Assembly: GCA_020431405.1 (NCBI GenBank)
Contig: JAGQIK010000036.1
Location: 1-63,731 of the forward strand
Direction: 5' to 3'
Source of the DNA: Myxococcales bacterium
GTDB taxonomy: Bacteria; Myxococcota_A; Polyangia; GCA-2747355
DNA: 63,731 bases
Under the pieces are notes generated by a model. That model worked only from the letters and a program-made list of their open reading frames with translations, ran no database searches and was not told the origin of the DNA. Made by a program: the position numbers and the translations under genes. Shown one piece after another: positions 15,442-38,372 of this stretch. How positions within the stretch are numbered: the stretch's first letter is position 1; each line of letters opens with the position of its first letter.

Positions 15442-17472
15442 CTAGCGGCCAACCACCGCGACGCCGTCGCGGAAGTAGCTGCCGAAGAAAAGCGATACTT
15501 GCCGCTGCGCCTCGGGCACGTCGAAGACGACGAAGTGACCGTCGTGGTAGCACATGTTGTCGTCGCCGCAGTAGCGCGAGCCCTTGCAGCTGCCGTCCGG
15601 CTCGCAGGCGTCCTCGGTGACTGGGCTGCGAAACTGCAGCAGGCCTGCCGTCACGGATCCGCCGTCGAGGCTGATGTTGCCGGCGATGGGCAGCGAGCGC
15701 GGCGCGGCGTCGTCGCGGCGCAGTGACTGCCCTGCGACTTCGCGCACCACCTCGCCCAGCGTCGGGATGCCGATGCCGATGGCGAGCGCGTCGGTGGTCT
15801 CGTTGGGCGTGTAGTGGTCGACGAAGCCCTGTGTGACGAGCAGGTTCTTGGCGGGGATGCCCGGTCGCGGCGCGCGGATCAGCGCCGAAGCCTGGTTAGC
15901 TGGGTCGGACACGTCGAGCAGCTGCTGGATGATCGTCGCCAGCGGGTGGAAGGCGTCGATCTTCTCCTGGATCAGCGAGCCGATGACGTCGGGGATGTTG
16001 ATCGGCTCGGTCTTGCTGAGCAGCGCGAGGATGCTGTTGGCGCCTGCACCGGAGAGTACCGCCGCGCCGACGCCCGGCTCGGCCGACAGGAACAGCGGCC
16101 CGGTGAGCCCGCCCTGCGAGTGGCCCATGAAGCCGACCTTCTGCGGATCGAACTGCACCTCGACGCCAAAGTCGACGCGCGTGCCCTTGGCGAAGGTCAG
16201 CTTGCGGAAGCGCAGGTTTCTGACCATGCGCAGCAGCGCGAAGTTGTCCGAGCCGCCTTGCACCACGTTGTAGATCGACGCGGTGGGGTTGAAGATGTTG
16301 ATGAACGCCAGCTGCGGCTCGGTGCCTTCCGGCGCGCGCGGGCCGTGCAGCGTCTGATCGATGCCGATCACGGCGGCGCGGCCGATGACCTTGCCGCTGG
16401 CGTCGGTCATGCGCGAGAGGCGCCAGGCGACGTCGCCGTTGATGAAGCTGCGATAGCTGCCGCCGGTGCCGTGCGCGTAGAGCACCACCGGCCAGCCGCG
16501 CGAGGGCATGGTGCCTTTGGGGATCGAGATCGCGAAGCGCAGCGTCTCCGTGCGCGCCACCTTGGGCAGCCCCTGCGCGTCGAGCTCGATGCCGCCACCG
16601 TCGGGCGGCAGGCTGAACGGCACTTTGCCCTGCTGGAAGAACGGTGCCTCGTAGGTGCCGCGCACCTCGACATAGCGCTCGGTCTCGCGCGCGACGACGA
16701 GGTCCTTGGCCACCGGCGCGGGCAGCGAGTGCACCACGGCGCGGATCTTCGAGGTCAGATCGAACGGGCCGCCGGTGGTGAAGACCGCCGCGCTGAGGAT
16801 GCCGGTGAGGCCGGTCTTGGCGAGGTAGGCGCGAAGCGGCGCGTAGGCGGCGTAGGCGCGCTCCTCGCCGCGCTCGGGGCGATCGGCGAGCAGCCGCGCG
16901 AAGGCGTCGGCTTGCACCACGGGGTGGCCGGTGGGATCGGCGAGGCCATCGGTGAGCAGCGCCGCGTAGATCGTCGCCGGACGCAACGTGAAGCCCGGCA
17001 GCGGCAGCAGCGTCAAGCTGTGCGCGCCGATGAAGCGCCCGGCGGCTGGCTTGTAGGCCAACAGCAGCGGGACGCGCTTGCCGTAGTCGGGCGAGCTGGG
17101 GTCGATGTCGACGAGCTGCACGGCCGAGCCAGCGGCGACCGCACCGGCTGGCGAGGCGGGAAGCGTCCCTTCGTCGATAGCGTCGCTGAAGCGAAAGTGC
17201 ACGGCGCCGTTGGTGGAGAAGCCGAAGCGCCCGCTCGCGACGAGGTCGTAGTAGTGCTGTAGAAGCTGCGGCTGGCCCGACGAAAAACGCGCCAGGTCGA
17301 TGGTGCCGTCAGCGCGCCGCCGGATGTCGTTGGGAAACGGCAGCGCGTAGAGGTCGGCGTCGGCGCCGCCTGCGAGATCGAACAGTGGGCGCGTGGGGGT
17401 GATCGACGCCGAGCTGCACGCCGCCACGGCGAGCGCCGCCCCAAGCGCCACGAAGCGAAATACGTACTTCAT
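15442..17472 (-). CDS. Lipase/esterase-like lipoprotein (alpha/beta hydrolase), VolA-type N-terminus
   Basis: The 676-residue lipoprotein (lipobox AVAAC, Cys19) has an N-terminal region opening with DADLYALPFPNDIRR, similar to the N-terminal domain of bacterial surface lipases. A C-terminal alpha/beta-hydrolase follows with VVLYAHGTGGS (oxyanion region), FMGHSQGG (nucleophile Ser) and a late VDHYTPNE acid region; a His in the last 60 residues would complete the triad. A Cys-rich loop (CEPDGSCKGSRYCGDDNMCY) precedes the end. It is related in layout to the tandem genes at 28830 and 30885. Likely surface lipid or ester hydrolysis; substrate unknown. TGCTAGCTT lies nine bases upstream of ATG. Confidence 0.78.
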   Translation of the reverse strand: MKYVFRFVALGAALAVAACSSASITPTRPLFDLAGGADADLYALPFPNDIRRRADGTIDLARFSSGQPQLLQHYYDLVASGRFGFSTNGAVHFRFSDAIDEGTLPASPAGAVAAGSAVQLVDIDPSSPDYGKRVPLLLAYKPAAGRFIGAHSLTLLPLPGFTLRPATIYAALLTDGLADPTGHPVVQADAFARLLADRPERGEERAYAAYAPLRAYLAKTGLTGILSAAVFTTGGPFDLTSKIRAVVHSLPAPVAKDLVVARETERYVEVRGTYEAPFFQQGKVPFSLPPDGGGIELDAQGLPKVARTETLRFAISIPKGTMPSRGWPVVLYAHGTGGSYRSFINGDVAWRLSRMTDASGKVIGRAAVIGIDQTLHGPRAPEGTEPQLAFINIFNPTASIYNVVQGGSDNFALLRMVRNLRFRKLTFAKGTRVDFGVEVQFDPQKVGFMGHSQGGLTGPLFLSAEPGVGAAVLSGAGANSILALLSKTEPINIPDVIGSLIQEKIDAFHPLATIIQQLLDVSDPANQASALIRAPRPGIPAKNLLVTQGFVDHYTPNETTDALAIGIGIPTLGEVVREVAGQSLRRDDAAPRSLPIAGNISLDGGSVTAGLLQFRSPVTEDACEPDGSCKGSRYCGDDNMCYHDGHFVVFDVPEAQRQVSLFFGSYFRDGVAVVGR

Positions 17473-25321: not shown

Positions 25322-25966
25322 ATGGCTGACAGGTCGCTACGGCTCGTGCTCGTCGAGGACCAACCGACGATCCTCGCCCAGCAGGCGCGGCTGCTCGAGG
25401 CGTTCGGCGACGAGCTCGACGTGGTCGGCACGGCGCGCGACGGCGCGCGCGCGCTCGAGGTCATCGAGGCGCAGCGTCCCGACGTGGTGCTGCTCGATCT
25501 CGGGCTGCCCGACATCGACGGCATCGAGGTCACGCAGCGCATCAAGCAGCGCTGGCCAAAGATCGAGATCCTGATCTTCACCATCTTCGACGACGAAGAG
25601 CGCGTGCTGCAGGCCGTGCGCGCCGGCGCCAGCGGCTACCTGCTCAAGGGCGCCCCCGTCGAGAAGATCGTCGAGGCGCTGCACGATGTCAGCGGCGGCG
25701 GCAGCGTGATCCAGCCGCGGCTGGCGCGCGCGCTGCTGCGGCGCCTGCAGCCGGCGCGCGCCGAAGCCGCCAAGCTCACGCCGCGCGAGACCGAGATCCT
25801 GACCCTCATCGCCAAGGGCCTCTCCAACCGCACCGCCGCCGAGACCCTCGGCGTCAGTCGCGCCACCATCCGCACTCATCTCGAGCACATCTACGCCAAG
25901 CTCGACGTGTCGAATCGCACCGAGGCCGTCACCGAAGCGATCCGCCAGGGAATCATCGAACCGTAG
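25322..25966 (+). CDS. NarL/LuxR-family response regulator
   Basis: The 214-residue protein has an N-terminal receiver (VEDQ acidic pair, LLDLGLPDIDG with phospho-Asp about 59, and the Lys in LLKGAPVEKI) and a C-terminal LuxR-type helix-turn-helix (LTPRETEILTLIAKGLSNRTAAETLGVS...IRTHLEHIYAKL). It should bind DNA as a phosphorylated dimer. ATG 25322 is preferred over ATG 25310 because the latter overlaps the -10-like TATGCT and the receiver begins soon after 25322. No kinase is directly adjacent; a lipoprotein gene follows four bases on and is probably cotranscribed. Confidence 0.9.
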   Translation: MADRSLRLVLVEDQPTILAQQARLLEAFGDELDVVGTARDGARALEVIEAQRPDVVLLDLGLPDIDGIEVTQRIKQRWPKIEILIFTIFDDEERVLQAVRAGASGYLLKGAPVEKIVEALHDVSGGGSVIQPRLARALLRRLQPARAEAAKLTPRETEILTLIAKGLSNRTAAETLGVSRATIRTHLEHIYAKLDVSNRTEAVTEAIRQGIIEP

Positions 25967-25970
25967 CGCC

Positions 25971-27134
25971 ATGCACGAGCGCCTGATCGCGCCGCGCAGG
26001 CGCCTGCTGCTGCTGCTGCTGTCGCTGCTGCTGAGCGCCTGCTGCCCCTACCGACATAGCGAGACGCCGCGAAGTGGGCCGCGCCTGGTCGAGGTCGCAC
26101 GTTTTTCGCGCGCTGCCACCGGTGTCGCGGTCGCGCCTGACGGCCGCACCTTCGTCAACTTCCCCAACTGGTGGTCGCAGCCGCCGGCGGCAGTGGTCGA
26201 GCTGCGGCCGGGCGGCGCGCGCGTGCCGGTGCCCGACGCGCGCTGGAACCGCTGGGACGGCACGTCGGCAGGTGCCAAGAACGCCTTCGTCTGCGTGCAG
26301 AGCGTTTACGTCGACCGCGGCGGGCGCACGCTGTGGATCCTCGACGCGGCAAACCCGCTGCGCGCCATCGGCCGCAAGCTCGTGCGCGGCGCGGCCAAGC
26401 TGGTGCGCGTCGACGTCGCCAGCCGGCGCGTCGAGCGCGTCTACCGCTTCGGCCTCGACGTCGCGCCCGAGGGCAGCTACCTCAACGACGTGCGCATCGA
26501 TCGCGCGCGCGGCGTCGCTTACATCAGCGAGTCGGAGATCGGCGCGCTGATCGTGCTCGACCTGCAAAGCGGCCGCGCGCGCCGCCTGCTCGACGGCCAC
26601 GCGTCGACACGCGCCGAGCCGGGCTTCACGCCCACCGTCGGCGGCCGGCCTTGGCTGATCTTTGGCCTCAGCGCCCCGCGCATCCACGCCGACGGCATCG
26701 CCCTCGACCCGCGCGGCGAGTGGCTCTACTACCACGCCGTCTCCGGCAAGACGCTCTACCGCGTGCGCACTGCCGACCTGCGCGACGCGTCGCTCGGCAA
26801 GCAGGCGCTCGCCGCGCGCGTGCAGCGCCTGGGCGTCACCGGCGCGGCGGACGGCATGCTGATGGGCCCGCGCGGCACGCTCTACCTCACCGCGCTCGAG
26901 CAGGACGCCGTGACGGCTCGCGCGCCGAGCGGCGCGCTGCGGGTGCTGGCGCAGGACCCGCGGCTGCAGTGGCCCGACAGCCTGGCGCTGCGCCCGCTGC
27001 CGGGCGGAGGCGCCGTGCTCTACGTCACCGTGACGATGATCCACCTCGACTGGCCCTTCAACTTCGGCATGCACCGCCGCGCAGCGCCCTACCGGCTGTT
27101 CTCGCTGCGGCTGCCCGCAGCGCGGCAGCGCTAG
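25971..27134 (+). CDS. Lipoprotein beta-propeller of the major royal jelly/Yellow type
   Basis: The 387-residue protein has an Arg-rich n-region, a long Leu run and lipobox LLSAC. The mature part resembles the MRJP/Yellow six-bladed propeller: YLNDVRIDRARGVAYISESE, then ALIVLDLQSGRARRLLDGH, then HADGIALDPRGEWLYYHAVSGKTLYRV. Bacterial members are often annotated as SMP-30-like or L-dopachrome tautomerase-related; the ligand is unknown. It lies four bases after the response regulator stop, so it probably shares its transcript. No catalytic residue can be assigned by eye. Confidence 0.78.
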   Translation: MHERLIAPRRRLLLLLLSLLLSACCPYRHSETPRSGPRLVEVARFSRAATGVAVAPDGRTFVNFPNWWSQPPAAVVELRPGGARVPVPDARWNRWDGTSAGAKNAFVCVQSVYVDRGGRTLWILDAANPLRAIGRKLVRGAAKLVRVDVASRRVERVYRFGLDVAPEGSYLNDVRIDRARGVAYISESEIGALIVLDLQSGRARRLLDGHASTRAEPGFTPTVGGRPWLIFGLSAPRIHADGIALDPRGEWLYYHAVSGKTLYRVRTADLRDASLGKQALAARVQRLGVTGAADGMLMGPRGTLYLTALEQDAVTARAPSGALRVLAQDPRLQWPDSLALRPLPGGGAVLYVTVTMIHLDWPFNFGMHRRAAPYRLFSLRLPAARQR

Positions 27135-27377
27135 CCTGCGAGCCGGCGCGGTCGCGCAGCGGTCGCGCAGCCGTCGTCCGCGGAGAATTCGGCGGTTTCG
27201 GCGCGTCGCCGGCAAGAAGCGACGGTCGCGCTCGTACCAGCCCTCGTTCGCGCGATGGAATTCGATTTCGCGAACTTGCCCGCGCGATCTGCGGGCGTTA
27301 TCGTCGGCGCCGACCAGCGTCTCAACTGTAGCTGTAGCTGTCTCTCGTTGTTGTTGTCGTGACTCAGGAGGAAACCG

Positions 27378-28133
27378 ATGAGTGCGCGAATCTCTCGCTC
27401 GCTGCTGGCCTTTCTAGCGGTTCTTTTCTTCGCCAACGCCGCGTTGGCGCAGCTTCCGCCACCGGCGCCGGAGCCGGGCGACGAGCCCAAGCCCAAGCTT
27501 CCGCCCCCGCCGAGGACCACGCCGCCGCCCGCGACCCACACGCCGCGTACGACGGCCGCGTCGTCGTCCAAGCCCGCCGTCAACCCCGAGATGCCCGTCG
27601 AGCGCGTCAAGGGCGGCGAGTGGGGCTTCGCCTGGCGCTTCGGCGGCCTCGCTAGCCTCGCGGCCACCGGCAACGGCTCGGGCGTAGGCAACATCATCCT
27701 CACCGAGATCGCCCTCAAGTACGTCCCCAACGAGAACTGGCGTGTCATCGGCTTCTTCGGCACGGGTCTGCGGCTCGACAGCCCCGAAGGCGGCACCAGC
27801 GGCACCGACTGGGGGCTCTCGCTCGGCGGCGGATTCGAGTATCACTTCCGCATCTGGCGCCGCATCTCGCCCTACTTCGGCGTTCAGCTCGCGCTCGGAC
27901 TGCGCGATCCGGCCGGCGACATCGGCGGTGACAGCAACCTCTCGTTCAGCCTCTCGCTCGGACCTCAGATCGGTATCGAGTACTTCATCTTCGACCACGT
28001 CAGCCTGCAGGCGACCTACCTGTTCTTCCTGCAGTTCGAGCTCAACACCTACGCGGCCGCCAGCGTTCGCGGCACGCGCTTCGAGTTCGGCACAGGCGCC
28101 GGTGGAGCCCTGACGCTAACGATCTACTTCTAG
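27378..28133 (+). CDS. Outer-membrane beta-barrel protein with proline-rich N-terminus
   Basis: AGGAGGA at 27366-27372 supports ATG 27378. The 251-residue protein has a signal peptide ending ALAQ, a Pro/Lys/Thr-rich stretch of about 45 residues, then alternating strands (WGFAWRFGGLASLAA, WRVIGFFGTGLRL, WGLSLGGGFEYHF, ISPYFGVQLALGL, LQATYLFFLQFEL) and a final GGALTLTIYF ending in Phe. This is typical of a small outer-membrane barrel; the proline-rich part may span periplasm or peptidoglycan. The 243-base gap upstream has GCGGTCGCGCA tandem repeats and no obvious promoter. Confidence 0.75.
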   Translation: MSARISRSLLAFLAVLFFANAALAQLPPPAPEPGDEPKPKLPPPPRTTPPPATHTPRTTAASSSKPAVNPEMPVERVKGGEWGFAWRFGGLASLAATGNGSGVGNIILTEIALKYVPNENWRVIGFFGTGLRLDSPEGGTSGTDWGLSLGGGFEYHFRIWRRISPYFGVQLALGLRDPAGDIGGDSNLSFSLSLGPQIGIEYFIFDHVSLQATYLFFLQFELNTYAAASVRGTRFEFGTGAGGALTLTIYF

Positions 28134-28139
28134 AGCCGT

Positions 28140-28157
28140 TATACTGGCCATGGAGGG
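28140..28157 (+). promoter_or_regulatory. TATACT -10 followed by GGAGGG ribosome site
   Basis: TATACT (28140-28145) is a near-consensus -10 directly downstream of the barrel gene stop. GGAGGG (28152-28157) is properly spaced for ATG 28162. Transcription from this -10 would begin at about the ribosome site, giving a minimal leader. Confidence 0.5.
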
Positions 28158-28161
28158 TTGC

Positions 28162-28764
28162 ATGCGTCTCGCACGGCTATCTTTCTTAGCGCTGCTGCCG
28201 CTCGCGGCGATCTTCGCGGTGAGCTGCGGTGAAGGCAGCACGGCGGGCACGCCGTTCGGACCGGGCTACCAGAGCGGGCCAAGCTCCAAGTCCGGCTTTG
28301 GTCCGGGATACAACAACGGGCCCAGCACCGGCACCACGGACCAGGTCATCGACGAGTTCTGCCGCTACTTCATCGGCTGCGCGCCGCGCATCAGCGACGA
28401 GCGCAGCCAGCAGGCCGTCGCGGACCAGGCCATCGAGCAGTGCAAGAACGCCATCAGCGGTCAGGGCCTCGACCAGATCCCGAGCGGCATCCTGCTCGCG
28501 GCCCTGTCGTGTATGACGAATCTTCCTTGCTCGGCGCTGTCCAACGCCGAAGCGGCGATCAGGCAGGCCTACACCTGCCTGCTCGCGGCCGGTCTGACGA
28601 ACCTGCCGCAGACGCCGCCGACCACCACGCGCCCCGACGCGCGCGTGCCCGACTTCAAGATTCCGGACTTTTCGATCCCGGACTTCAGCTTCCCCAACCG
28701 CGACTCGACGGTCGACTCCACCCGCGACGCGGGCAGCGACGCCGACGCCGACCTCGGCGTCTAG
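28162..28764 (+). CDS. Lipoprotein with GPGY and PDF short repeats
   Basis: ATG 28162 has GGAGGG four bases upstream; an ATG at 28150 overlaps the ribosome site. The 200-residue protein has lipobox FAVSC. It carries two FGPGYxxGPS units near the N terminus, a helical Cys-containing domain (CRYFIGCAPRISDE...CKNAISG...CMTNLPCSAL...CLLAAG) of about 100 residues, and a tail with PDFKIPDFSIPDFSFP, a triple PDFxI repeat. The Cys pairs suggest disulfides outside the cytoplasm. Family not recognised. The lipase-like pair follows. Confidence 0.65.
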   Translation: MRLARLSFLALLPLAAIFAVSCGEGSTAGTPFGPGYQSGPSSKSGFGPGYNNGPSTGTTDQVIDEFCRYFIGCAPRISDERSQQAVADQAIEQCKNAISGQGLDQIPSGILLAALSCMTNLPCSALSNAEAAIRQAYTCLLAAGLTNLPQTPPTTTRPDARVPDFKIPDFSIPDFSFPNRDSTVDSTRDAGSDADADLGV

Positions 28765-28811
28765 TACCTCACCTCACCCGCGCTCGGGCGATCTGCGAAG
28801 GCGGCATCTCG

Positions 28812-28820
28812 TGCTAGCCT
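28812..28820 (+). promoter_or_regulatory. Extended -10 (TGCTAGCCT) 9 nt before ATG
   Basis: TGCTAGCCT ends nine bases before ATG 28830 of the first lipase-like gene. No Shine-Dalgarno sequence lies between. It belongs to the recurrent TGCTANNNT group and would head the 28.8-36.8-kb collinear block. Confidence 0.5.
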
Positions 28821-28829
28821 TTGCAGATC

Positions 28830-30875
28830 ATGAAGCAGCTTAGAAAACGGTCCCTCCTCAGCCTGCTCGTCCTGCTGCTGGCCATCGGTGCAACGGCCTG
28901 CTCGGACGACTCCCCCAACAAGCCCAGCGACGCCGGCCCCGACACGGGCGACGGCCCGAGCGGTGACAGCGGCCCGGTTCCGGCGCACTGCAACCCGCTC
29001 GACCCGACGCACTGCGCGCTGCCGTGGCCGTCGAGCTTCTACCTCAAGGAAGACACCACCACGCCCACCGGCTTTCGCGTCAACTACACGGCCGAAGCGC
29101 TGCCCATCAGCGGCAAGGGCAAGATGCTCGACGTGAGCGCGTGGAACCGCAAGGACGGCTTCTCGCCGTCGGTGCAGCCGGTGGCCTACTTCGACAAGGG
29201 CGTCTCCGGCGACGGCCTCGTCGGCGAAAACGACGACTACGGCAAGTCGCTCGAGGCGACGGCGCTGGTGCAGATCATCGACTTCACCTCGGGCGAGCGC
29301 GTGCCGCTGTTCGCCGAGGTCGAGCAGCAGGCGCTGCAGGCCGGCTTCAAGGACAAGTACAAGCCGGGCCTTCTGATCCGCCCCGCCAAGCGGCTGCTCG
29401 AGAACCGCCGCTACGTCGTCGTGCTGCGCGTCGGCATCAAGGCGCACGACGGCAGCGCGCTCGCGCCGCCCGAGCCGTTCCGCAAGATCCGCGACGGCGA
29501 GACCACCGGCGACCCGACCATCGACAAGGAGGCCACGCGCCTCGAGCCGGTGCTCAAGTTCGCCGAGGGCAAGGGCATCGCGCGCAAAGACATGCTGCTG
29601 GTCTGGGACTTCCACACCGCGAGCGCCGAGGCGGTGCGCGGCGACGTGCTGTTCATGGTCGACGACGCGCTGGCGCGCATGCAGCAAAACGGCGGCCCCG
29701 ACTTCAAGATCATCGAGAGCAAGGACAAGAGCCAGACGCACCTGTATCGCGAGATCACCGGCACGATCAGCGTGCCCTCGTATCTCGCCACCGACGACAA
29801 CGGCAGCTGGCTCAAGCGCGACGCCAGCGGCAAGCCCGAGTATCGCGGCCAGCAGGACTTCCACTTCCGTCTGCACATTCCTGCCTGCGCCGAGACGGCG
29901 CAGAAGCCGCTGCGCGTGCTCGTCTACGGCCACGGCTTGTTCGGCAGCGTCGACAGCTCGCTCAACGACGAGGACACGCGCGCCGACGCCGATCGTTTCT
30001 GCGTGGTGCTGATGGGCGTCGACTGGCTCGGCCTCTCCAACAACGACACGGCCGACGCGGTGACGATGATCACGCAGGACTGGGCCAAGTTCCCGCGCGT
30101 CACCGACCGGCTGCACCAGGCGCAGGTCAACTTCGCCGCGCTCGTCGAGCTCGCCGCCGGCAGCAAGCTGTGGGCCGCCACCGAGCTTCAGGTCAACGGC
30201 ACGCCGGTGGCTGACGGAAAAGAGATCTACTACTTCGGCATCTCGGGCGGCGGCATCAACGGCTTCGTCTTCACCGCGCTGCAAAAGCGCATCGAGAAGT
30301 TCGTGCTGCAGGTGCCGGGCGGGCCGTGGACGCTGCTGATGCAGCGCAGCGCCCGTTTTCTGCCGTTCGTCGGCCTGCTGCTGGTCGAGTATCAGGACCC
30401 CATCGATCTCGCGCTGCTGATCCATCTGTCGCAGCAGTTCTGGGATCCGGTCGACCCGGCGAGCTACGCGCCGCACATCCTGCAGAACCCGCTGCCGGGC
30501 CGCTCGGCAAAGAAGGTCATCGTGCAGGAGGCGCTCAACGACCCGGCCGTCAACAACCTCGGCACGCGCTACCTGGTGCGCAGCATGGGCACGATGCCGC
30601 AGATGACGCCGGCGCACGTGCCGCTCTACGGCGTCGAGCAGAAGGCGGCGCCGCTCGACTCGGCCTACCTGCAGTGGGATCTGCAGCAGAGCTGGCGCCA
30701 CCCCGGCGGCAACCTGACGCCCAAGACCGAGCCGCCAGGCCCGGAGAATCCGCACACGCTGCTCGGCAAGACCGAGTCGTGCCGACTGCAGCTCGACCGC
30801 TTCTACAAGGCCGATGGCAAGGCCGAGCAGACCTGCACCGCGGCCTGCAACAAAGACAACGCCATCACGCCTTAG
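28830..30875 (+). CDS. Lipase-like lipoprotein, first of a tandem paralogous pair
   Basis: The 681-residue lipoprotein (signal ending GATAC) starts at ATG 28830; an upstream TTG is less likely. After an Asp/Gly/Ser linker comes HCNPLDPTHCALPWPSSFYL, the same opening as the gene at 30885 and similar to the N-terminal domain of surface lipases. The hydrolase part has VLVYGHGLFGS (oxyanion region) and FGISGGGINGF, where Ser sits in the GxSxG nucleophile elbow; note the second position is Ile rather than the His of GHSQGG. A Cys-containing tail follows. Probable surface ester hydrolase; the substrate is unknown. It and its neighbour are alike over nearly full length. Confidence 0.75.
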   Translation: MKQLRKRSLLSLLVLLLAIGATACSDDSPNKPSDAGPDTGDGPSGDSGPVPAHCNPLDPTHCALPWPSSFYLKEDTTTPTGFRVNYTAEALPISGKGKMLDVSAWNRKDGFSPSVQPVAYFDKGVSGDGLVGENDDYGKSLEATALVQIIDFTSGERVPLFAEVEQQALQAGFKDKYKPGLLIRPAKRLLENRRYVVVLRVGIKAHDGSALAPPEPFRKIRDGETTGDPTIDKEATRLEPVLKFAEGKGIARKDMLLVWDFHTASAEAVRGDVLFMVDDALARMQQNGGPDFKIIESKDKSQTHLYREITGTISVPSYLATDDNGSWLKRDASGKPEYRGQQDFHFRLHIPACAETAQKPLRVLVYGHGLFGSVDSSLNDEDTRADADRFCVVLMGVDWLGLSNNDTADAVTMITQDWAKFPRVTDRLHQAQVNFAALVELAAGSKLWAATELQVNGTPVADGKEIYYFGISGGGINGFVFTALQKRIEKFVLQVPGGPWTLLMQRSARFLPFVGLLLVEYQDPIDLALLIHLSQQFWDPVDPASYAPHILQNPLPGRSAKKVIVQEALNDPAVNNLGTRYLVRSMGTMPQMTPAHVPLYGVEQKAAPLDSAYLQWDLQQSWRHPGGNLTPKTEPPGPENPHTLLGKTESCRLQLDRFYKADGKAEQTCTAACNKDNAITP

Positions 30876-30884
30876 AGGTTATCC

Positions 30885-32939
30885 ATGAACGCGCACTCAC
30901 GGCGGACGCTGGCGAGCGTGCTGGCGGCGGCGCTGCTCGTCGTCGTCGTGGCGGGCGGCTGCTCGGACGACACGCCCTCCAAAACCCCTGACGCCGGTCT
31001 CGACAGCGGCGGCGACGCCGACAGCAGCAGCGGGCCGCTGCCCGCGCACTGCAACCCGCTGGTGCCCAAGTACTGCGCGCTGCCGTGGCCGTCGAGCTTC
31101 TACCTCAAAGAGGACAGCACCACGGCCACCGGCTTTCGCGTCAACTACAGCGCCGACGCGCTGCCGATCGCGGTCAAGGGCCACAAATTCGACCCCACCG
31201 CGCTCAACGGCTGGGACGGCTTTTCGCCGGCGGTGCAGCCGCTGGCCTTCTTCGAGGGCGGCGTGTCGGCCGAGGGCCTCGTCGGTCAAGACGATGACTA
31301 CGCCAAGTCGCTCGAGGCGACGGCGCTGGTGCAGATCATCGACTACACATCGGGCGAGCGCTTCCCCGTGTGGGCCGAGATCGACCTCAACGCGCTCGAG
31401 CCCGGCTTCAAGGAAAACTACAAGCCGGGCCTGATGATCCGCCCTGCCAAGCGGCTGCTCGAAAACCACCGCTACGTCGTCGTGCTGCGCGTCGGCCTCA
31501 AGGCCCAGGACGGCAGCGTGCTCGCGCCGCCCGAGCCGTTTCGCAAGATCCGCGACGGCGAGACCACCGGCGACCCGACCATCGACAACGAGGGCAAGCG
31601 CCTCGAGCCGGTGCTGAAGCTTGTCGAGGGCAAGGGCGTCGCGCGCAAAGACATGCTGCTGGTCTGGGACTTCCACACCGCCAGCGGCGATGCGATCCGC
31701 GGCAACGTGCTGTTCATGCTCGACGACGCGCTCAAGCGCATGCAGCAAACCGGCGGGCCCGACTTCAAGGTCACCAGCACCCGCGACAAGCCCGACACCG
31801 GCATCTATCGCGAGGTGCTCGGCACGATCAGCGTGCCGTCGTATCTCGCCAGCGACGACGGCGCCAGCTGGCTCAAGCGCGACGCCAGCGGCAAGCCCGA
31901 GTATCGCGGCCAGCAAGACTTCGAGTTCCGCCTGCACATCCCGGCCTGCGCCGAGACGGCGCAAAAGCCGCTGCCGGTGATGATCTTCGGCCACGGCCTC
32001 TTCGGCGCGCCAAAGGGCGAGATGCTCTCGAGCTACCACCGCGGCCTCATCGACCGGCTCTGCATGGTGCAGATTGGCGTCAAGTGGATCGGGCTTTCGG
32101 AGGACGATCGCGTTGACGCGGTGACGATGATCGTCAAGGACTGGGCAAAGTTTCCGCGCCTCACCGACCGCGTGCACCAGGCGCACGTGAACTTCGCCGC
32201 GCTCGTCGAGCTCGCCGTGGGCAGCAAGCTGTGGGCAGCCAGCGAGCTCGCGGTCAACGGCACGCCGGCAGCCGACGGCAAGCAGATCTACTACTACGGC
32301 ATCTCCAACGGCGGCGTGAACGGCTTCGGCTTCGCGGCGCTGCAGACGCGCATCGAGCGGTTCGTGGTGCAGGTCGGCGGCGGCCCATGGACGCTGCTGA
32401 TGCAGCGCAGCGCCAGCTTCTTGCCGTTCATCGGCCTTCTGCGCCTCGAGCACCCAGACCCGATGAACCTCGCGCTGCTGGTGCACCTCTCGCAGAGCTA
32501 CTGGGACCCCATCGACCCGGCGAGCTACGCCGGCCACATCGTCGACAATCCGCTGCCTGGACGCACGGTCAAGAAGGTCATCGTGCAGGAGGCGCTCGAA
32601 GATCCGCTCGTCAACAACGTCACCACGCGCTACCTGGTGCGCACCATGGAAGGCAAGCTGCCGCTGCTGACGCCCAAGCAGCAGTCGGTCTACGGCGTCG
32701 ATGAAAAGGCCGGTCCGCTCGACTCGGCCTACGCGCAGTGGGACACCAAGTCCACCTGGAAACACCCGGGCGGCAACCTCACGCCCAAGGACGCGCCGCC
32801 GCGCGACAACTCGGCGCACGAGATTCTGCGCCGCACCGAGTCGTGCACGCTGCAGCTCGAGCGCTTCTTCAAACCCGACGGCAAGGTCGAGCACACGTGC
32901 ACGGGTCCTTGCACCAATGACAACGCGGTCACGCCGTAG
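30885..32939 (+). CDS. Lipase-like lipoprotein, second of the tandem pair
   Basis: The 684-residue lipoprotein (lipobox VVAGGC) begins nine bases after its paralogue, with AGAGG before ATG 30885. Conserved landmarks are HCNPLVPKYCALPWPSSFYL, the shared PPEPFRKIRDGETTGDPTID block, VMIFGHGLFGA and YGISNGGVNGF (nucleophile Ser in GxSxG, with Asn before Gly-Gly). The main divergence is in the linker and around the elbow (GISNGG against GISGGG), so substrate preference may differ. Its end overlaps the next gene by 23 bases, a sign of coupled translation. Confidence 0.75.
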   Translation: MNAHSRRTLASVLAAALLVVVVAGGCSDDTPSKTPDAGLDSGGDADSSSGPLPAHCNPLVPKYCALPWPSSFYLKEDSTTATGFRVNYSADALPIAVKGHKFDPTALNGWDGFSPAVQPLAFFEGGVSAEGLVGQDDDYAKSLEATALVQIIDYTSGERFPVWAEIDLNALEPGFKENYKPGLMIRPAKRLLENHRYVVVLRVGLKAQDGSVLAPPEPFRKIRDGETTGDPTIDNEGKRLEPVLKLVEGKGVARKDMLLVWDFHTASGDAIRGNVLFMLDDALKRMQQTGGPDFKVTSTRDKPDTGIYREVLGTISVPSYLASDDGASWLKRDASGKPEYRGQQDFEFRLHIPACAETAQKPLPVMIFGHGLFGAPKGEMLSSYHRGLIDRLCMVQIGVKWIGLSEDDRVDAVTMIVKDWAKFPRLTDRVHQAHVNFAALVELAVGSKLWAASELAVNGTPAADGKQIYYYGISNGGVNGFGFAALQTRIERFVVQVGGGPWTLLMQRSASFLPFIGLLRLEHPDPMNLALLVHLSQSYWDPIDPASYAGHIVDNPLPGRTVKKVIVQEALEDPLVNNVTTRYLVRTMEGKLPLLTPKQQSVYGVDEKAGPLDSAYAQWDTKSTWKHPGGNLTPKDAPPRDNSAHEILRRTESCTLQLERFFKPDGKVEHTCTGPCTNDNAVTP

Positions 32940-33975
32940 CGCGCTGCTCGTCGTCGCGCTCGCCGCGATCGTCATCACCTGCGCGGGCTGTCCCGGCTCG
33001 TCCAGTGACTTCGGTGTCGACCGCGGCGCCGGCGACCGCGGCCTCGGCGACGGCGGCGGCGGCGACGGCAGCGCGGGCGGCGAGACCGCACCCGGGCTCG
33101 ACACGGGCAGCGCCGACGCGGTGCTCGCCGACAGCAGCGCCGACGCACCGCTCGGCGGCCCGGCCTACCTGCACGTCGATCTGTGGAGCATCTGGTGGAA
33201 CGACCGCACGCGCTGCGGCGCCGAGCGCACGTTCCTCGAGATCTGCCAGCAGCGCAAAGAGGCCGACTGCAGCCTCTACAGCCAGGCCTACAGCGCGTGC
33301 AGCCCGCAGTCGATCGTCTACGGCCAGGTCGGCCCCGAGAAATCGGGCGAGACGCTCTGCCAGCGCAGCAAGCTGCCGAGCGTCGGCGGCTGCGAGGCGA
33401 GCAAGTACGACTTCGCGCAGCTTCGCTACTGGTGGTACGGCGCCGAGTGGCAGGGCAACTGGCCCGTGGCGACGATCAAGGTCTTCCCGCAGGGCGCCGA
33501 CTGGAAGGGCGGCGGCGAGCTGATCGCGCTCAGCACGCACCCCGGCGCGGCGCAGGCGGTCATGTCCGGCATCAGCAACCACGGCCTCGGCTGGGGCTGC
33601 GCGATGGCCGGCAAGACGTCGGGCGATGCCGCCTACAGGACGCCCTTCGGCGCCTTCGCCTGGATCGCGCTGCCCACGGACAAGGCCGTCACCGTCGCCG
33701 GCATGGCGGCGACAAACTTCGGCGGCCAGCCTTTTGCGGGGTGCGGGCGCGGCAACGCCTCGCAGTCGCCGTGGGTCACCTCGCCGCCCGGCGCGCAGCT
33801 CGGCTGCGTCTACGTCGAGCAGAGCATCACCTTCAAGCCTGGCCGCCACTACCTGTGGCGCTACGGCAAGATCAGCGAGCTGCCGAGCGCCGGCCCGCCG
33901 CAAGACATCATCGACGCCTTCAAGCGCGCCGAGATCGGCCTCGACGTCACCACGCGCGCGGCGTGCAAGCTGTGA
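32917..33975 (+). CDS. Cys-rich secreted lipoprotein, family not recognised
   Basis: ATG 32917 lies inside the end of the preceding gene and gives a lipoprotein signal ending VITCAGC. The 352-residue protein has a Gly/Asp-rich linker and a ~270-residue globular domain with many Trp and Cys (YLHVDLWSIWWNDRTRC, CQQRKEADC, FAQLRYWWYGAEW, GLGWGCAMAG). The Cys residues probably form disulfides. Strand-like segments (AVTVAGMAATNFGG, GCVYVEQSITFKPGRHYLWRY) suggest a beta-rich binding domain. The next gene starts within its stop codon (GTGA overlap), so the two are tightly coupled. Confidence 0.65.
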   Translation: MTTRSRRSALLVVALAAIVITCAGCPGSSSDFGVDRGAGDRGLGDGGGGDGSAGGETAPGLDTGSADAVLADSSADAPLGGPAYLHVDLWSIWWNDRTRCGAERTFLEICQQRKEADCSLYSQAYSACSPQSIVYGQVGPEKSGETLCQRSKLPSVGGCEASKYDFAQLRYWWYGAEWQGNWPVATIKVFPQGADWKGGGELIALSTHPGAAQAVMSGISNHGLGWGCAMAGKTSGDAAYRTPFGAFAWIALPTDKAVTVAGMAATNFGGQPFAGCGRGNASQSPWVTSPPGAQLGCVYVEQSITFKPGRHYLWRYGKISELPSAGPPQDIIDAFKRAEIGLDVTTRAACKL

Positions 33976-34574
33976 GCGGCGCGCTCGCGCTCGGCGCCGC
34001 GGTGCCGGCGGCGCTCGCGGAGGCGCCCGTCGTCGACCTCGACGGCCAAGCCGTCGCGATGGCCACGCTGTGGCGCGAGCGCGCGGCGCTGTGCGTGTTT
34101 CTGCGCCACTTCGGCTGCATCGGCTGCGACCAGCAGGTCAGCGAGCTCTTGCCGCGCCTTCACGAGCTCGACGAGCATGGCCTCGCGGTGGCCTTCATCG
34201 GCAGCGGCGACGTGCAGTCGATGCGCGCCTTTCGCGAGGACTTCGGCCTCGCCGACAAGCCGCTGTCGCTCTACACCGACGAGACGCTGGCGTCCTATCG
34301 CGCCGCCGGGCTCGCGCGCTCGATGTGGGGCGTGCTCGGCCCGCGCGCGCTCGGTCAGACGCTGGCTGCCGCAGGCCGCGGCTATCGGCAGCGCAGCCGT
34401 GCTGGCGACGGCTCGCAGCAAGGCGGCGCGCTGATCGTCGACGCCGACGGCGTGCTGCGCTTTTACTTTCGCAGCCGCAGCCTCGGCGACCGCGCCGACC
34501 CCAACGAGCTGGTGCAGACCGCGCTGAAGATGAGCCTTGGCCGCGCCCGCGCGCGCGGCGCCTACTTCGTCTGA
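33972..34574 (+). CDS. Peroxiredoxin-like protein of the AhpC/TSA_2 (PRXL2) type
   Basis: The 200-residue protein starts at GTG 33972, overlapping the previous TGA. FLRHFGCIGC (Cys49, Cys52) is the hallmark of the AhpC/TSA_2 family, related to eukaryotic PRXL2/SelU proteins with a thioredoxin fold. The pair may reduce peroxides or act as a thiol switch. The rest shows the thioredoxin-like pattern (LAVAFIGSGDVQSMRAFRED, then LSLYTDETLASYRAAGL and GGALIVDADGVLRFYFRSR). No signal peptide is visible, so it is cytoplasmic although encoded beside a lipoprotein. Cotranslation with it suggests a functional link. Confidence 0.8.
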   Translation: MSGALALGAAVPAALAEAPVVDLDGQAVAMATLWRERAALCVFLRHFGCIGCDQQVSELLPRLHELDEHGLAVAFIGSGDVQSMRAFREDFGLADKPLSLYTDETLASYRAAGLARSMWGVLGPRALGQTLAAAGRGYRQRSRAGDGSQQGGALIVDADGVLRFYFRSRSLGDRADPNELVQTALKMSLGRARARGAYFV

Positions 34575-34612
34575 GACGACGCCAACGCGAGAGAGAGAGC
34601 GAGCGGACAAAG

Positions 34613-35260
34613 ATGGAGCCGACCTACTTCGTTCACGGCGCCAACGTGCTCTACCTGCTGTCGTATCTGGTGCGCGACATCCTGTGGCTGCGCCTTCTGT
34701 GCGTCACGGCCGCCTCGACGATGCTGCCGTACTTTTTTCTGCGCGGCGATCGCCCCGACTGGGTGCCGATCAGCTGGAGCACGCTGTCGATCGTCATCAA
34801 CTTGGTGCAGATCGCGCTGCTCTTTCTCGAGCGCCGCCCGGTGCGGCTGCCAGCCGACGAGCAGCGCCTCTACCAGCTGACCTTCCGCTCGCTGACGCCG
34901 CGCGAGTTTCAGCGCCTCGTCGGCGCCGGGACCTGGCGCACGGCCAACGCCGGCGAGCGGCTGATCGCACACGGCGCCGTCACCGACAAAGTGCTGGTGA
35001 TATTCGAGGGCGAGGCCGCCGTGGTGCTGCCCGACGGCAAGGACGTGGCGCACCTCACAGCGGGCAGCTTTGTCGGCGAGATGAGCTTCCTTTCGGGCGA
35101 GCCAACGTCGGCCAACGTCGACGCCGCGTCGGCGCTGCGCTACGTCGCCTGGGACGCCGAGACGCTGCGCCGTTTCCTCGAAAAACACGCCACCATCCGC
35201 AGCGCGCTGCAGCTGACGCTCGGCACCGACCTGGCGGCCAAGCTGCGCACGGCGCGCTAA
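34613..35260 (+). CDS. Bacterial Popeye-type membrane protein with cyclic-nucleotide-binding fold
   Basis: The 215-residue protein has three hydrophobic segments in the first 80 residues, then a cNMP-binding-like beta-barrel. The junction INLVQIALLFLERRPVRLPA, followed by EQRLYQLTFRSLTPREFQRLV, closely resembles the membrane-to-barrel junction of animal POPDC proteins, which bind cAMP. The barrel has GERLIAHGAVTDKVLVIFEGEAAV and GSFVGEMSFLSGEPTSANVDA. The last resembles the phosphate-binding cassette of CRP-like domains but lacks a clear Arg in the usual GE...R position, so the ligand is uncertain. No DNA-binding domain is present. It probably senses a nucleotide at the membrane. Confidence 0.75.
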   Translation: MEPTYFVHGANVLYLLSYLVRDILWLRLLCVTAASTMLPYFFLRGDRPDWVPISWSTLSIVINLVQIALLFLERRPVRLPADEQRLYQLTFRSLTPREFQRLVGAGTWRTANAGERLIAHGAVTDKVLVIFEGEAAVVLPDGKDVAHLTAGSFVGEMSFLSGEPTSANVDAASALRYVAWDAETLRRFLEKHATIRSALQLTLGTDLAAKLRTAR

Positions 35261-35327
35261 AGGCCTTTTCGGTCGTGACCGCCGTCATTTGAGTCGACAC
35301 TCGAGCCGTGCTAATCGTCCATCAGAT

Positions 35328-36251
35328 ATGAGCATGCCGGTCATCAATAGCGCCCTCGATCTGTCGCGCCGTCTCAGGCAGGCCTTCTTCTCGCCGTTTC
35401 TGGCGCAGATCGTAGTCACCCGTCGCTGCAACCTCGACTGCGGCTACTGCAGCGAGTACGACAAGGTCTCGGACCCGATCCCGTTTCACACGCTGCGCGA
35501 TCGCATCCGCCACCTCAAGCGGCTCGGCGCCTTCGCCGTCGAGCTGACCGGCGGCGAGCCGATGATGCACCCGCGCGTCTACGACATCATCCACTTCGCG
35601 AGGCAGCTCGGCTTCGTCAAGACGATGATGATCAGCAACGCGTACCTGTTCAACGCCGAGCGCGTGCGGCGCCTCAACGACGCCGGGCTGCAGGAGCTGC
35701 AGATCTCCATCGACGGCGTCGAGACCAACGACGTCACGATCAAGGTGCTGCGCCCGCTACGACCGAAGCTCGAGGCCGTCGCCAAGGAGGCGCGCTTCAA
35801 GGTCGTGCTCAACTCGGTGATCGGCAGCGCGCCGCCCGCCGAGGTGCTCGAGGTGATCGACTTCGCCATCGAGCACGGTTTCGTGCCGCGCGTGCAGCTG
35901 CTTCACGACGACAACGGCCAGCTGCTGCTCGAGCCGGGCCAGATGCACCTCATCGACGACATCCGCGAGCGCCTCGGCAAGCGCTTCCTCGAAGCCGGCG
36001 ACTACCGCATGCAGCTCGTCGAGACCGGCCGCGCGCCGTTCAAGTGCCGCGCCGGCGCGCGCTACCTCTACATCGACGAAGAAGGCATGGTGCGCTGGTG
36101 CTCGCAGACGCGCGAGGACTGGGGCAAAGCGCTCGCCGACTACACCACCGAAGACCTGCGCGAGCAGTTCTACCTCAACAAGAGCTGCAACGAGCAGTGC
36201 ACCATCGGCTGCGTGCGCACCTGCAGCGCGCCCGAGCAGTGGCGCGCCTAG
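35328..36251 (+). CDS. Radical SAM enzyme with Cys-rich C-terminus
   Basis: The 307-residue protein has CNLDCGYC (Cys34, Cys38, Cys41), which ligates the SAM [4Fe-4S] cluster, and LTGGEPMMHP as the SAM-binding GGE motif. The C-terminal part has FKCRAGARYLYIDEEGMVRWCSQ and then CNEQCTIGCVRTC, a SPASM/twitch-like arrangement able to hold an auxiliary cluster. Such enzymes often modify peptides or small molecules. No precursor peptide gene is obvious nearby. TTG upstream starts are possible, but ATG 35328 agrees with the TGCTAATCG element ten bases before it. The next gene starts inside its last codons. Confidence 0.85.
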   Translation: MSMPVINSALDLSRRLRQAFFSPFLAQIVVTRRCNLDCGYCSEYDKVSDPIPFHTLRDRIRHLKRLGAFAVELTGGEPMMHPRVYDIIHFARQLGFVKTMMISNAYLFNAERVRRLNDAGLQELQISIDGVETNDVTIKVLRPLRPKLEAVAKEARFKVVLNSVIGSAPPAEVLEVIDFAIEHGFVPRVQLLHDDNGQLLLEPGQMHLIDDIRERLGKRFLEAGDYRMQLVETGRAPFKCRAGARYLYIDEEGMVRWCSQTREDWGKALADYTTEDLREQFYLNKSCNEQCTIGCVRTCSAPEQWRA

Positions 36252-36832
36252 TCTTCGCGGCGCTCGCGCTCGTCGCGTCATGCGCGACAGCGCACGCGCA
36301 ATCGACGTCACAGCCCGCGTCGCAGCCGGCGTCGGCACCCGCTTCGCGGCCGGCGTCGCGTGCAGCGGTCAAGCCTGGGCCGGTGCTCGTCATCGATCAC
36401 AACGAGAGCGAGCGCGCGGTACCGGCGGGCGAGGCGGTGCAGATTTCGGCGCGCATCCGTAGCCAGCTGAGCAACATCTCGGCGCGCCTGTTCTTTCGCG
36501 CCACCGGCGACAAGAAGTTTCACCTCGCGCCCATGCAGCGCGTGGAGGGCCCGCGCTTCGCGGCGCGCGTGCCGACCTTCGCCGTGGTGCCGCCAGCGCT
36601 CGAGTACTACATCGAGGCCAACGCGGGCAGCGCGCGCACGACCAAGGGCAGCGCGTCATCGCCGCTGCACCTGCCGGTGGTCGGCCAGGAGATCGCAGAC
36701 CCGGGCTCGGGCAAACCGCCCTGGTACAAGCGCTGGTACGTCTGGGTGTCGCTGGGCATCGTCGTCGCCGGCGTGACGGCGGCGATCATCGTCGCGACGA
36801 ACCAGCCCGACCCGAACACGCAGCTGCCCTGA
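36239..36832 (+). CDS. Small exported protein with Ser/Gln/Pro/Ala linker and C-terminal membrane helix
   Basis: GTG 36239 overlaps the radical SAM stop and gives a signal peptide MARLVFAALALVASCATAHA. The 197-residue product then has SQPASQPASAPASRPASR, a beta-rich domain (ALVIDHNE, then VQISARIRSQLSNISARLFFRAT and LEYYIEANAGSARTT) like an Ig-type or CBM-type sandwich, and a final helix YVWVSLGIVVAGVTAAIIVAT. Topology would place the sandwich outside, anchored by the C-terminal helix. Its 3' end overlaps the convergent gene on the other strand by 47 bases. Function unknown. Confidence 0.65.
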   Translation: MARLVFAALALVASCATAHAQSTSQPASQPASAPASRPASRAAVKPGPVLVIDHNESERAVPAGEAVQISARIRSQLSNISARLFFRATGDKKFHLAPMQRVEGPRFAARVPTFAVVPPALEYYIEANAGSARTTKGSASSPLHLPVVGQEIADPGSGKPPWYKRWYVWVSLGIVVAGVTAAIIVATNQPDPNTQLP

Positions 36833-38372
36833 TCACGAGCAGCAGCAACGCCAGCAGCAGCCACGCGAGGTTGTCGGTGGTGCTGCCAACCGTGCAGCTG
36901 CAGCCGCTGTCGCCGTCGTTGCTCGCCGCGCCGTCGCCCGTGCTGGCCTTGGCGTCGCCGGCGCTGCTGTCGGCCACGGCGCTCGCGTCGCTGCCGCTCG
37001 CCGCGTCGGGCGAGCTCGGGCTGCCATCGCTAGCATTGCCGCCGTCGCTCGGCGGCGGCGGTGGGGCGCTGTAGTACTCGTAGGCGCCCACGTCGACGAG
37101 GCCGCTCGGATCGGGGCGCGCGCGATCGTCGAGGTCGGTGCTCAGACCGTAGCTCGCCACGGCGCTGCCCTTGTCGATCACCGGCGAGCCGGCGAGCGGC
37201 CGAAAGTCGGCGTCGAGCTTGGCGCTGGCCACGTCGGCAAAGCCGAGGTTGGTCGCCTCGCTCAGATCCACGTCCTGATAGACGCGCGCCACGTCGACCT
37301 TGCTGCTCGGCGCGATGACGAGGTTGTTGATCGCTTGGTTGCCGACGGTGTTGCGGCTGGCGAAGCGGATGCCGTCGCCGTCGGGGCGCACGATGGTGTT
37401 GTTGAGCAGCACGAAGCGCGTGCCGGCCTTGGCGCGGTCGCCGATATAGATGCCGGTTCCGCCGACGTCGACCACCACGTTGTTGGCGATGCGGTTGTCG
37501 CCGAGCCCGAAGATCACCAGGCCGCCGCCTTTGGCGCTGCCGGCGCGCACGTCGTTGTTTTCGATGTCGGCCGCGGTGCCGGCGTTTATCTGCATGCCCG
37601 AGGTCTGGTACTGCACCTGCTCGCGGCCGTGATCGCGGATCACGTTGTGGTGGATGCGCGCGTTCTTGGTGGCGCAGCCCACCTGCAGCCCGTCCCAGCC
37701 GCTGCGCTCGATCAGGTTGTGGTCGATCTCGACGTCTTCGATCTCGTGCGGGTAGAACGTCACCTTCTGGCCGCTGCAGTCGACGTCGTCGCGCTGCGGC
37801 CACCAGCTGTAGCCGACGTAGAAGCCCTCGCCGCCCACGTCGTGGATGTGGTTGTGGTGAAAACGCGTGTTGCGCTGTACGAAGCTGCGCAGGTCACGCT
37901 CGCTGCAGCTCGGATCGGTCTTGGCCATGATGCCGGCGAAGCCCGAGCTGTCGATCTCGAGGTGATCGACCTCGTAGTCGCTGCTCTTGCCGCCGAGCGC
38001 GAGCCCGTGGCTGCCCGCGGGCGTGGCGCCGATGTAGATGCCGTAGGTCTGGCCGGCCACGCCGCTGCCGCTGATCTGAAAGTGCTGGCTGCTCAGCACG
38101 AGAAACCCGTGGCTGGTGGCGCCGCGTATCTCGACGCGGCCTGCGCAGGCTTTGATCACCACGCGGCTCTGCGCGCTGCCCACCACGTCGCGCATGATCA
38201 GCTGCTTGCGCGTTCCCGCCGCCAAACAGATCACGTCGCCGGGCTGCACACCGAGCGCCTTGCCGTCGATCAGCGAGGTGCTCGCGGCGATGTTGTGCGT
38301 CTTGGCGAGCGCAGGGGTGCTGCACACGAGCAGCGCTGCGAGCGCACCGAGCGCGCGAAACGAACAGGACAT
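36786..38372 (-). CDS. Secreted right-handed beta-helix protein with MYXO-CTERM-like tail
   Basis: The 528-residue protein starts at ATG 38372 (GGGAG seven bases upstream) with a signal peptide ending PALAK. Residues about 90-400 repeat short strands and turns (FQISGSG, IEIDHNLIERSGWDGLQVG, ARIHHNVIRDHG, NRIANNVVVDVGGTGIYIG, FVLLNNTIVRPDGDGIRF), the pattern of pectate-lyase-like parallel beta-helices. A Ser/Asp/Ala-rich linker leads to CSCTVGST, a hydrophobic helix and terminal Arg-Arg, matching the MYXO-CTERM sorting signal used in Myxococcota. It is likely surface-displayed and acts on or binds polysaccharide. It follows the PilZ-receiver gene by 26 bases. Confidence 0.85.
   Translation of the reverse strand: MSCSFRALGALAALLVCSTPALAKTHNIAASTSLIDGKALGVQPGDVICLAAGTRKQLIMRDVVGSAQSRVVIKACAGRVEIRGATSHGFLVLSSQHFQISGSGVAGQTYGIYIGATPAGSHGLALGGKSSDYEVDHLEIDSSGFAGIMAKTDPSCSERDLRSFVQRNTRFHHNHIHDVGGEGFYVGYSWWPQRDDVDCSGQKVTFYPHEIEDVEIDHNLIERSGWDGLQVGCATKNARIHHNVIRDHGREQVQYQTSGMQINAGTAADIENNDVRAGSAKGGGLVIFGLGDNRIANNVVVDVGGTGIYIGDRAKAGTRFVLLNNTIVRPDGDGIRFASRNTVGNQAINNLVIAPSSKVDVARVYQDVDLSEATNLGFADVASAKLDADFRPLAGSPVIDKGSAVASYGLSTDLDDRARPDPSGLVDVGAYEYYSAPPPPPSDGGNASDGSPSSPDAASGSDASAVADSSAGDAKASTGDGAASNDGDSGCSCTVGSTTDNLAWLLLALLLLVIRAAACSGRAGSSRR

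Follow-up and report, generated by a model that had tools for sequence, protein, structure and literature searches.

A conserved gene pair encoding a Popeye-like membrane protein and a PRXL2-type thiol oxidoreductase in Myxococcota and other bacteria

Seven closely spaced or overlapping rightward genes occupy positions 28830-36832 of a 63,731-nucleotide stretch of a Myxococcales bacterium genome (contig JAGQIK010000036.1; the whole stretch is hereafter the window), and their packing raises the question of whether they form one conserved operon with a joint function or whether a smaller unit lies among them. The presence, coordinates and overlaps of the seven genes, here called A to G, were confirmed:

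Gene A, 28830-30875, + strand: lipase-like lipoprotein of the alpha/beta hydrolase type, in tandem with its paralogue B; a neighbour, outside the conserved unit
Gene B, 30885-32939, + strand: lipase-like lipoprotein, tandem paralogue of A; a neighbour
Gene C, 32917-33975, + strand: lipoprotein-like protein of 352 aa, 12 of them Cys; a neighbour
Gene D, 33972-34574, + strand: PRXL2/SelL-like thiol oxidoreductase, predicted to be cytosolic; first half of the conserved pair
Gene E, 34613-35260, + strand: bacterial Popeye (POPDC-like) protein, predicted to be a membrane protein; second half of the conserved pair
Gene F, 35328-36251, + strand: radical SAM protein carrying additional cysteines in its C-terminal part, alternative TTG start at 35289; a neighbour
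Gene G, 36239-36832, + strand: exported protein that has a hydrophobic stretch in its C-terminal part; a neighbour

Genes B and C overlap by 23 bp, C and D by 4 bp (GTGA), and F and G by 13 bp, with gaps of at most 67 bp elsewhere. The preliminary description had named two paralogous lipase-like lipoproteins, a Cys-rich lipoprotein, a PRXL2-like protein, a Popeye-type protein, a radical SAM enzyme and an exported protein overlapping it, and all of these identities stood. A and B are 70% identical over 660 aa. Neither matched a Pfam family alone, and Lipase_bact_N was matched by two of the seven members of the A/B alignment (5.5e-7 at best); that alignment carries a G-I-S-G/N-G-G elbow with invariant S474 and H645, so both proteins fit an alpha/beta hydrolase. 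Gene C matched no Pfam family, and the gene F product matched Radical_SAM at 3e-17.

Conservation of the block was searched in 38 related genomes and in the bacterium's own genome with genes F, E, B, D and C as queries, and the surrounding genes were inspected for 20 of the matches. No second copy of the seven-gene block was found in any of these genomes; the idea of a gene order conserved among relatives was thus not borne out, and the whole block was rejected as a conserved operon. What did recur was D adjoining E in one relative (G020) and, once (L080), a lipase gene (36% identity) and a radical SAM gene (44% identity) in convergent orientation. Homologues of gene C were present in only two of the 38 relatives. 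Genes D and E are a conserved two-gene unit within an otherwise unconserved run. The joint membrane or redox function first proposed for all seven genes was right in kind for this recurring pair; position alone ties genes A, B, C, F and G to it, and these five are probably local neighbours, perhaps co-transcribed, that lie outside the D-E unit.

In a Myxococcota set (377 genomes, own genome included), 8 of the 17 Popeye loci had the D gene immediately upstream of E and on its strand; so did 11 of 27 loci from a species-genome scan and one of nine from the phylum of genome G391 (392 genomes). With repeats removed (17, plus 27 less 8, plus 9 less 1) there were 44 bacterial Popeye loci, and 15 of these held the pair: the eight from Myxococcota, six new ones from the species-genome scan, and L205. 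Two near-copies (L121 and L168) were counted as two loci, and four partial or truncated loci (L148, L175, L208 and L211) were kept in the 44 and left out of the Popeye tree. The search of the 377 Myxococcota genomes itself gave only 15 Popeye loci, and none of 14 control genomes had a match. The pairing was seen across the phylum and beyond, with gaps no larger than 38 bp except in one of the 15 pairs, where it is 203 bp; by a rough estimate, about 0.001 pairs would be expected by chance in the Myxococcota set. Genes in fetched loci were called by a custom script, and some were re-read by longest ORF or from an ORF listing. The genomes are mostly MAGs, and the pair is also present in an isolate record, Plesiocystis pacifica SIR-1 (L174), where the two genes overlap.

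Ten further loci, of planctomycete type, have a Popeye gene adjoining a multihaem cytochrome c gene with five to six CxxCH haem motifs. One of the two redox neighbours, D or the cytochrome, adjoins the Popeye gene in 25 of the 44 loci, and neither was present in the stretch seen for the other 19, some of which are near contig ends. The cytochrome-linked Popeye genes form one clade in the tree, which covers 40 of the 44 loci, and this linkage may therefore reflect one event. The cytochromes would be periplasmic, unlike D with its predicted cytosolic place.

The product of gene E, 215 residues long, matched POPDC1-3 (PF04831) over residues 6-213, a span that takes in the membrane part, at 5e-15 (56.3 bits against a cut-off of 28.1) and cNMP_binding at 1.3e-13, and PF04831 matched all 30 members of the family alignment, A3, at E 0.001 or better. 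The AF2 model (pLDDT 93.7) has hydrophobic helices at residues 4-17, 23-43 and 50-74, the first of them short, preceding a C-terminal domain with the cNBD fold (Z about 18), and the charges fit a predicted N-out/C-in topology. As modelled, E is a full-length Popeye homologue with three predicted membrane helices and a Popeye domain. In canonical domains the PBC arginine binds the phosphate of cAMP and the PBC Glu binds the ribose. Within A3 the Glu was retained in 27 of 30 members and the phosphate-binding Arg in none, so that the canonical set of cAMP-binding residues is incomplete and cAMP binding by the bacterial Popeye protein is doubtful. The POPDC pocket motif FQV[TS] was found in none of the 30, and DSPE in one, near its C-terminus and outside the pocket. 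No POPDC structure was among the 60 of 244 PDB sequence matches listed or among the 50 fold matches listed in either of two fold searches, though one may still exist.

The product of gene D matched AhpC-TSA_2 (PF13911) at 6.5e-16, with 59 bits against a cut-off of 27, which places it in the PRXL2 family. Its CxxC motif lies in RHFGCIGC, with CIGC at residues 49-52 and at the start of a helix (50-68) in an AF2 model of pLDDT 93.6, for which the best solved match was human prostamide/PGF synthase (9usa, Z 20.5). Against the SelL_rel_redox profile (NF040769) the window's D scored 104.3 bits, under the 120-bit cut-off, and all 14 linked D proteins matched that profile at E 1e-5 or better. The window's D is not a SelL-type selenoprotein: its gene has no in-frame TGA, and the active motif has Cys codons. 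All 14 surveyed Popeye-linked D proteins have CxxC, as against UxxC, with selenocysteine, in 25 of 27 unlinked relatives; the D of L205, outside the motif survey and the tree, has CxxC when its sequence is read directly. Among 109 Myxococcota matches, in-frame stops were absent from 8 of 8 linked and from 10 of 101 unlinked D genes (Fisher p 1.2e-7). The D tree had 41 rows, made up of 30 of these 109 matches, three more from the 38-relative search, L092, six linked D from the species-genome scan and the second D of L174, with same-contig duplicates dropped; in it the Popeye-linked group had mixed support (UFBoot 56, SH-aLRT 100).

It is about an even call that D and E form a functional unit in which E, as a membrane-anchored sensor, tethers or regulates the cytosolic thiol oxidoreductase D. 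E would sit in the inner membrane by its three helices with the Popeye/cNMP-type domain in the cytosol, and would most likely hold at the membrane D, a putatively soluble PRXL2-type CxxC oxidoreductase whose gene stands just before that of E, probably on the same message. A ligand in the non-canonical pocket of E, perhaps a cyclic nucleotide or similar small molecule, would then switch or localise the thiol chemistry of D on a membrane substrate, candidates for which are an oxidised lipid and a membrane-protein disulfide. Cooperation of a simpler kind is possible, if somewhat doubtful, with E a mere anchor whose cNMP-type domain is a ligand-free, protein-binding module: the missing phosphate-binding Arg in 30 of 30 members and the apparent swap of partner for a cytochrome in one clade fit this, but the domain retains its beta-roll, its PBC helix and, in 27 of 30 members, the PBC Glu, and animal Popeye domains bind cAMP through a non-canonical pocket according to a review (PMC5872366). 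That D and E are independent, and kept together only by a shared response to oxidative or membrane stress, is unlikely; most genomes with D relatives have them without a Popeye gene, and 29 of the 44 Popeye loci lack D, but the fixed order of D then E, the near-zero spacing and the pair-specific Cys-type D point to a closer link. A single operon of all seven genes with one membrane-lipid/redox function is very unlikely, for although it is favoured by the three overlaps, the short gaps, a place in the longest same-strand run of the window (11 genes, 25346-36832; the next has four) and a gene for a secreted hydrolase-like protein (so called from the N-terminal sequence alone) directly upstream of D-E in G020, the block has no other copy in the 38 relatives, relatives of F sit in other clusters, several with nucleotidyltransferase-like and MMPL-like genes (as read from sequence), and lipase relatives are widespread without D-E, with a lipase match in 27 of the 38. 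Short gaps are usual in this window, where 23 of 33 same-strand neighbours are at most 70 bp apart (median gap 34 bp), so the close spacing of A to G says little. A sequence scan found no promoter-like sites and no excess of terminator-like ones (5 observed, 4.5 in shuffled sequence).

Other identities for the locus were rejected. E was ruled out as a Pycsar defence effector, as the PADLOC models PycTIR, TIR-effector and PycC matched only its cNMP domain (residues 100-214), and the other six genes matched no Pycsar model in PADLOC. A defence island was likewise rejected, as PADLOC gave only generic matches: one part matched was E's cNMP domain, the other the radical SAM core of the F product (at most 62 bits, with viperin models). 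A scan of viral contigs with the Popeye alignment returned two stretches, neither a relative.

POPDC proteins are important in heart and muscle disease. Their exact biochemical activity is called poorly understood in one review (PMC8706714), and two others (PMC5872366, PMC6562197) trace the family back to the base of the animals, with CRP/CAP the most similar proteins outside it. A description of a bacterial Popeye protein or of a pairing with PRXL2/SelL was not found in the literature searched, which included PMC6952887 and PMC2398784 but few subscription papers; bacterial PF04831 sequences may already be catalogued in Pfam, though undiscussed. The bacterial protein bears on the origin of the family and offers a simple system for Popeye function: it is small and full-length, with a recurring enzyme partner, and suited to studies of structure, ligand and partner. 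The pairing also gives a hint of function for the Cys-type branch of a selenoprotein family. As a conjecture held to be fairly unlikely, the Popeye family would be of ancient bacterial origin and would first have served to control membrane redox chemistry by way of a partner enzyme, which is of PRXL2 type in Myxococcota and other groups and a multihaem cytochrome in planctomycetes; animals would have received the membrane-plus-Popeye architecture from such a source, and animal POPDC proteins might be redox scaffolds, for example with PRXL2A or PRXL2B.

Among known systems, animal POPDC proteins (POPDC1/BVES, POPDC2 and POPDC3) have a cytosolic Popeye domain that comes after three membrane helices, as predicted for E, and, like E, lack the canonical PBC arginine. 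E differs from them in having almost no extracellular part, in keeping the canonical PBC Glu, in lacking the DSPE and FQVT pocket motifs and any domain after the Popeye domain, and in its gene adjoining a redox gene. Crp/PKA-type cyclic-nucleotide-binding domains share the fold of its C-terminal domain, but E lacks their phosphate-binding Arg and any DNA-binding or kinase part, and would be anchored by its three N-terminal helices. Close to D are PRXL2B (FAM213B, prostamide-prostaglandin F synthase) and PRXL2A/SelU: the D model aligns with human PRXL2B over 161 residues at 26% identity, and there is a sequence match at 2.9e-13 with the CxxC aligned; unlike these, D comes from bacteria, where its gene pairs with that of a Popeye protein. 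By profile the linked D proteins belong to the same family as the SelL-related selenoproteins (NF040769), with the same RHFG-[C/U]-xx-C region, but they carry Cys in place of Sec, though the host has a tRNA-Sec gene.

The seven rightward genes that a preliminary description had claimed for positions 28830-36832 were all recovered as stated.

Start positions and strands of genes A to G
28830, +, gene A, lipase-like protein
30885, +, gene B, lipase-like protein
32917, +, gene C, lipoprotein-like protein
33972 (GTG), +, gene D, PRXL2/SelL-like thiol protein
34613, +, gene E, Popeye protein
35328, or TTG at 35289, +, gene F, radical SAM protein
36239 (GTG), +, gene G, exported protein

Judged by their 70% identity over 660 amino acids, A and B are a tandem duplication. 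A third, distant lipase-like member lies at 15442-17472 on the reverse strand, with 20% identity to B in the family alignment. The product of C contains 12 cysteines, and a Pfam search with it gave no match. The radical SAM protein F carries additional C-terminal cysteines. At their 3' ends, G and a convergent beta-helix gene at 36786-38372 share 47 bp (36786-36832). The block genes fall within a same-strand run of 11 genes, and no run in the window is longer; a Major-royal-jelly-protein-like gene (25971-27134, +; PF03022, 1e-16) belongs to it too. The window is one entire contig of an 11.2 Mb genome (733 contigs, 96% complete). The packing of the block is unusual solely in run length, as same-strand gaps in the window have a median of 34 bp. 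The preliminary description had proposed one joint function for all seven genes from their coupled starts. The tight spacing is real, but coupled starts alone are weak evidence of joint function because close packing is ordinary here (gaps of 70 bp or less in 23/33 cases).

Five of the proteins (F, E, B, D, and C) served as queries against 38 relatives and the source genome, and 20 stretches around the matches were read for neighbourhood. Across these genomes the gene order of the whole block was not conserved. Relatives of the five proteins were on unrelated contigs except in two cases: in G020 D adjoins E, and in G012 F-like radical SAM and A/B-like lipase genes are convergent neighbours (L080, 2948-5954). 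Relatives of C occurred in 2 of the 38 genomes. Those of F (37-69% identity) have other neighbours, several times sugar-nucleotide and transporter-like genes as read from the sequence; at loci L074, L078, and L079 they lie amid genes read as nucleotidyltransferase-like, MMPL-like, and membrane-lipid-type; F itself may act in a pathway for lipids or glycans. In G001-G003, which share the family or order of the source genome and are its closest relatives, no full-length Popeye match was found.

The conserved part of the block is the D-E pair. Popeye genes were found at 17 loci in 16 of 377 Myxococcota genomes, the source genome included (PF04831 by itself found them in 14), and D relatives at 109 places in 96. 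D was directly upstream on the same strand at 8 of the 17 Popeye loci, where a rough estimate of chance expectation gives about 0.001 pairs. A scan of bacteria and archaea, one genome per species, returned 27 Popeye loci, and D was upstream in 11 of them; Plesiocystis pacifica SIR-1 and a Nitrospinota record are among its results, and it is surely incomplete because a single short peptide pattern served as query. In P. pacifica, a second Cys-type D relative (CILC; L174, 7605-8273) lies two genes downstream of the pair. The phylum of the Planctomycetaceae genome G391 (392 genomes) yielded nine Popeye loci, one with D (L205). With repeats removed, D lies upstream of the Popeye gene in 15 of 44 loci over all surveys; in 14 of these pairs the gap lies between -4 and 38 bp, and in the remaining pair it is 203 bp. 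The other five genes of the block (A, B, C, F, and G) may be transcribed together with D-E in this genome; nothing indicates that they have the same task.

By sequence, D genes linked to a Popeye gene are a special branch. Unlinked D relatives usually carry the motif RHFG-U-xx-C with a TGA codon, the mark of a selenoprotein, whereas linked D has RHFGCxxC or a near variant. In the tree set, CxxC was present in 14/14 linked and U in 25/27 unlinked members, and in the full Myxococcota listing the in-frame stop was absent from 8/8 linked versus 10/101 unlinked genes (Fisher p 1.2e-7). In this tree the linked members share one side of a branch, whose support is mixed (56/100). The source genome appears to make selenoproteins: it has a tRNA-Sec gene (G000:C513:52522-52616; 68.9 bits, above cut-off) and a TGA-containing D relative elsewhere (G000:C208:3922-4434), so the cysteine in linked D does not stem from missing Sec machinery.

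D-linked Popeye genes are spread across the Popeye tree with seven changes, which fits either an old pair with several losses or repeated gain. At eight planctomycete loci from the species-wide scan (L156, L157, L158, L159, L162, L164, L165, and L166), the Popeye gene lies 3' of a same-strand gene of 959-995 amino acids with six CxxCH motifs, and at two more (L202 and L203) it stands in divergent orientation to a multi-CxxCH gene (5 motifs in one case, 6 in the other). Pfam cytochrome c models matched 3/3 scanned proteins of this type. The ten Popeye genes with this second, cytochrome-type redox neighbour form one clade (support 99/100), so this linkage may be a single event.

Profile evidence identifies E as a Popeye protein. 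PF04831 matches its residues 6-213 and all 30 aligned family members, and in a family-profile search of eight genomes full-length Popeye proteins scored 264 bits or more along their entire length, whereas ordinary cNMP proteins reached no more than 70 bits, over residues 75-212. D22, R27, W55, N63, R74, and P76 are invariant in 30/30 members. Two reviews (PMC6562197, PMC5872366) state that the Popeye domain occurs only in POPDC proteins, name CRP/CAP as their nearest other proteins, and place the family's origin at the animal base, noting that some members are protozoan. Our literature search on Popeye and SelL/PRXL2 found no paper on bacterial Popeye proteins or the D-E pairing. Since Pfam's model recognises the bacterial proteins, databases can reveal this kinship even if it has not been discussed in print.

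In the most likely mechanism, E would keep D on the cytosolic side of the membrane, a ligand in the E pocket would gate D, and D would use its CxxC to act on membrane thiols or oxidised lipids. The enzyme PRXL2B reduces a prostaglandin endoperoxide, and its kinship with D makes lipid peroxides candidate substrates. The closest solved fold to the D model (pLDDT 93.6) is the PRXL2 protein human prostamide/PGF synthase (9usa; Z 20.5, rmsd 2.4, 161 residues, 26% identity), with a small lead over ordinary peroxiredoxins (Z 19.4 and lower); a sequence search with D agrees, returning prostamide/PGF synthase only (2.9e-13). In the E model, three helices at the N-terminus precede a cyclic-nucleotide-type domain, and the fit of charged residues predicts an N-out, C-in arrangement, as in animal POPDC. 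The phosphate-binding arginine is present in 0/30 aligned Popeye members and the ribose-binding glutamate in 27/30; animal members also lack the canonical cassette, according to one review (PMC5872366). With the arginine absent and the glutamate mostly kept, the bacterial pocket looks intermediate between the canonical and animal forms.
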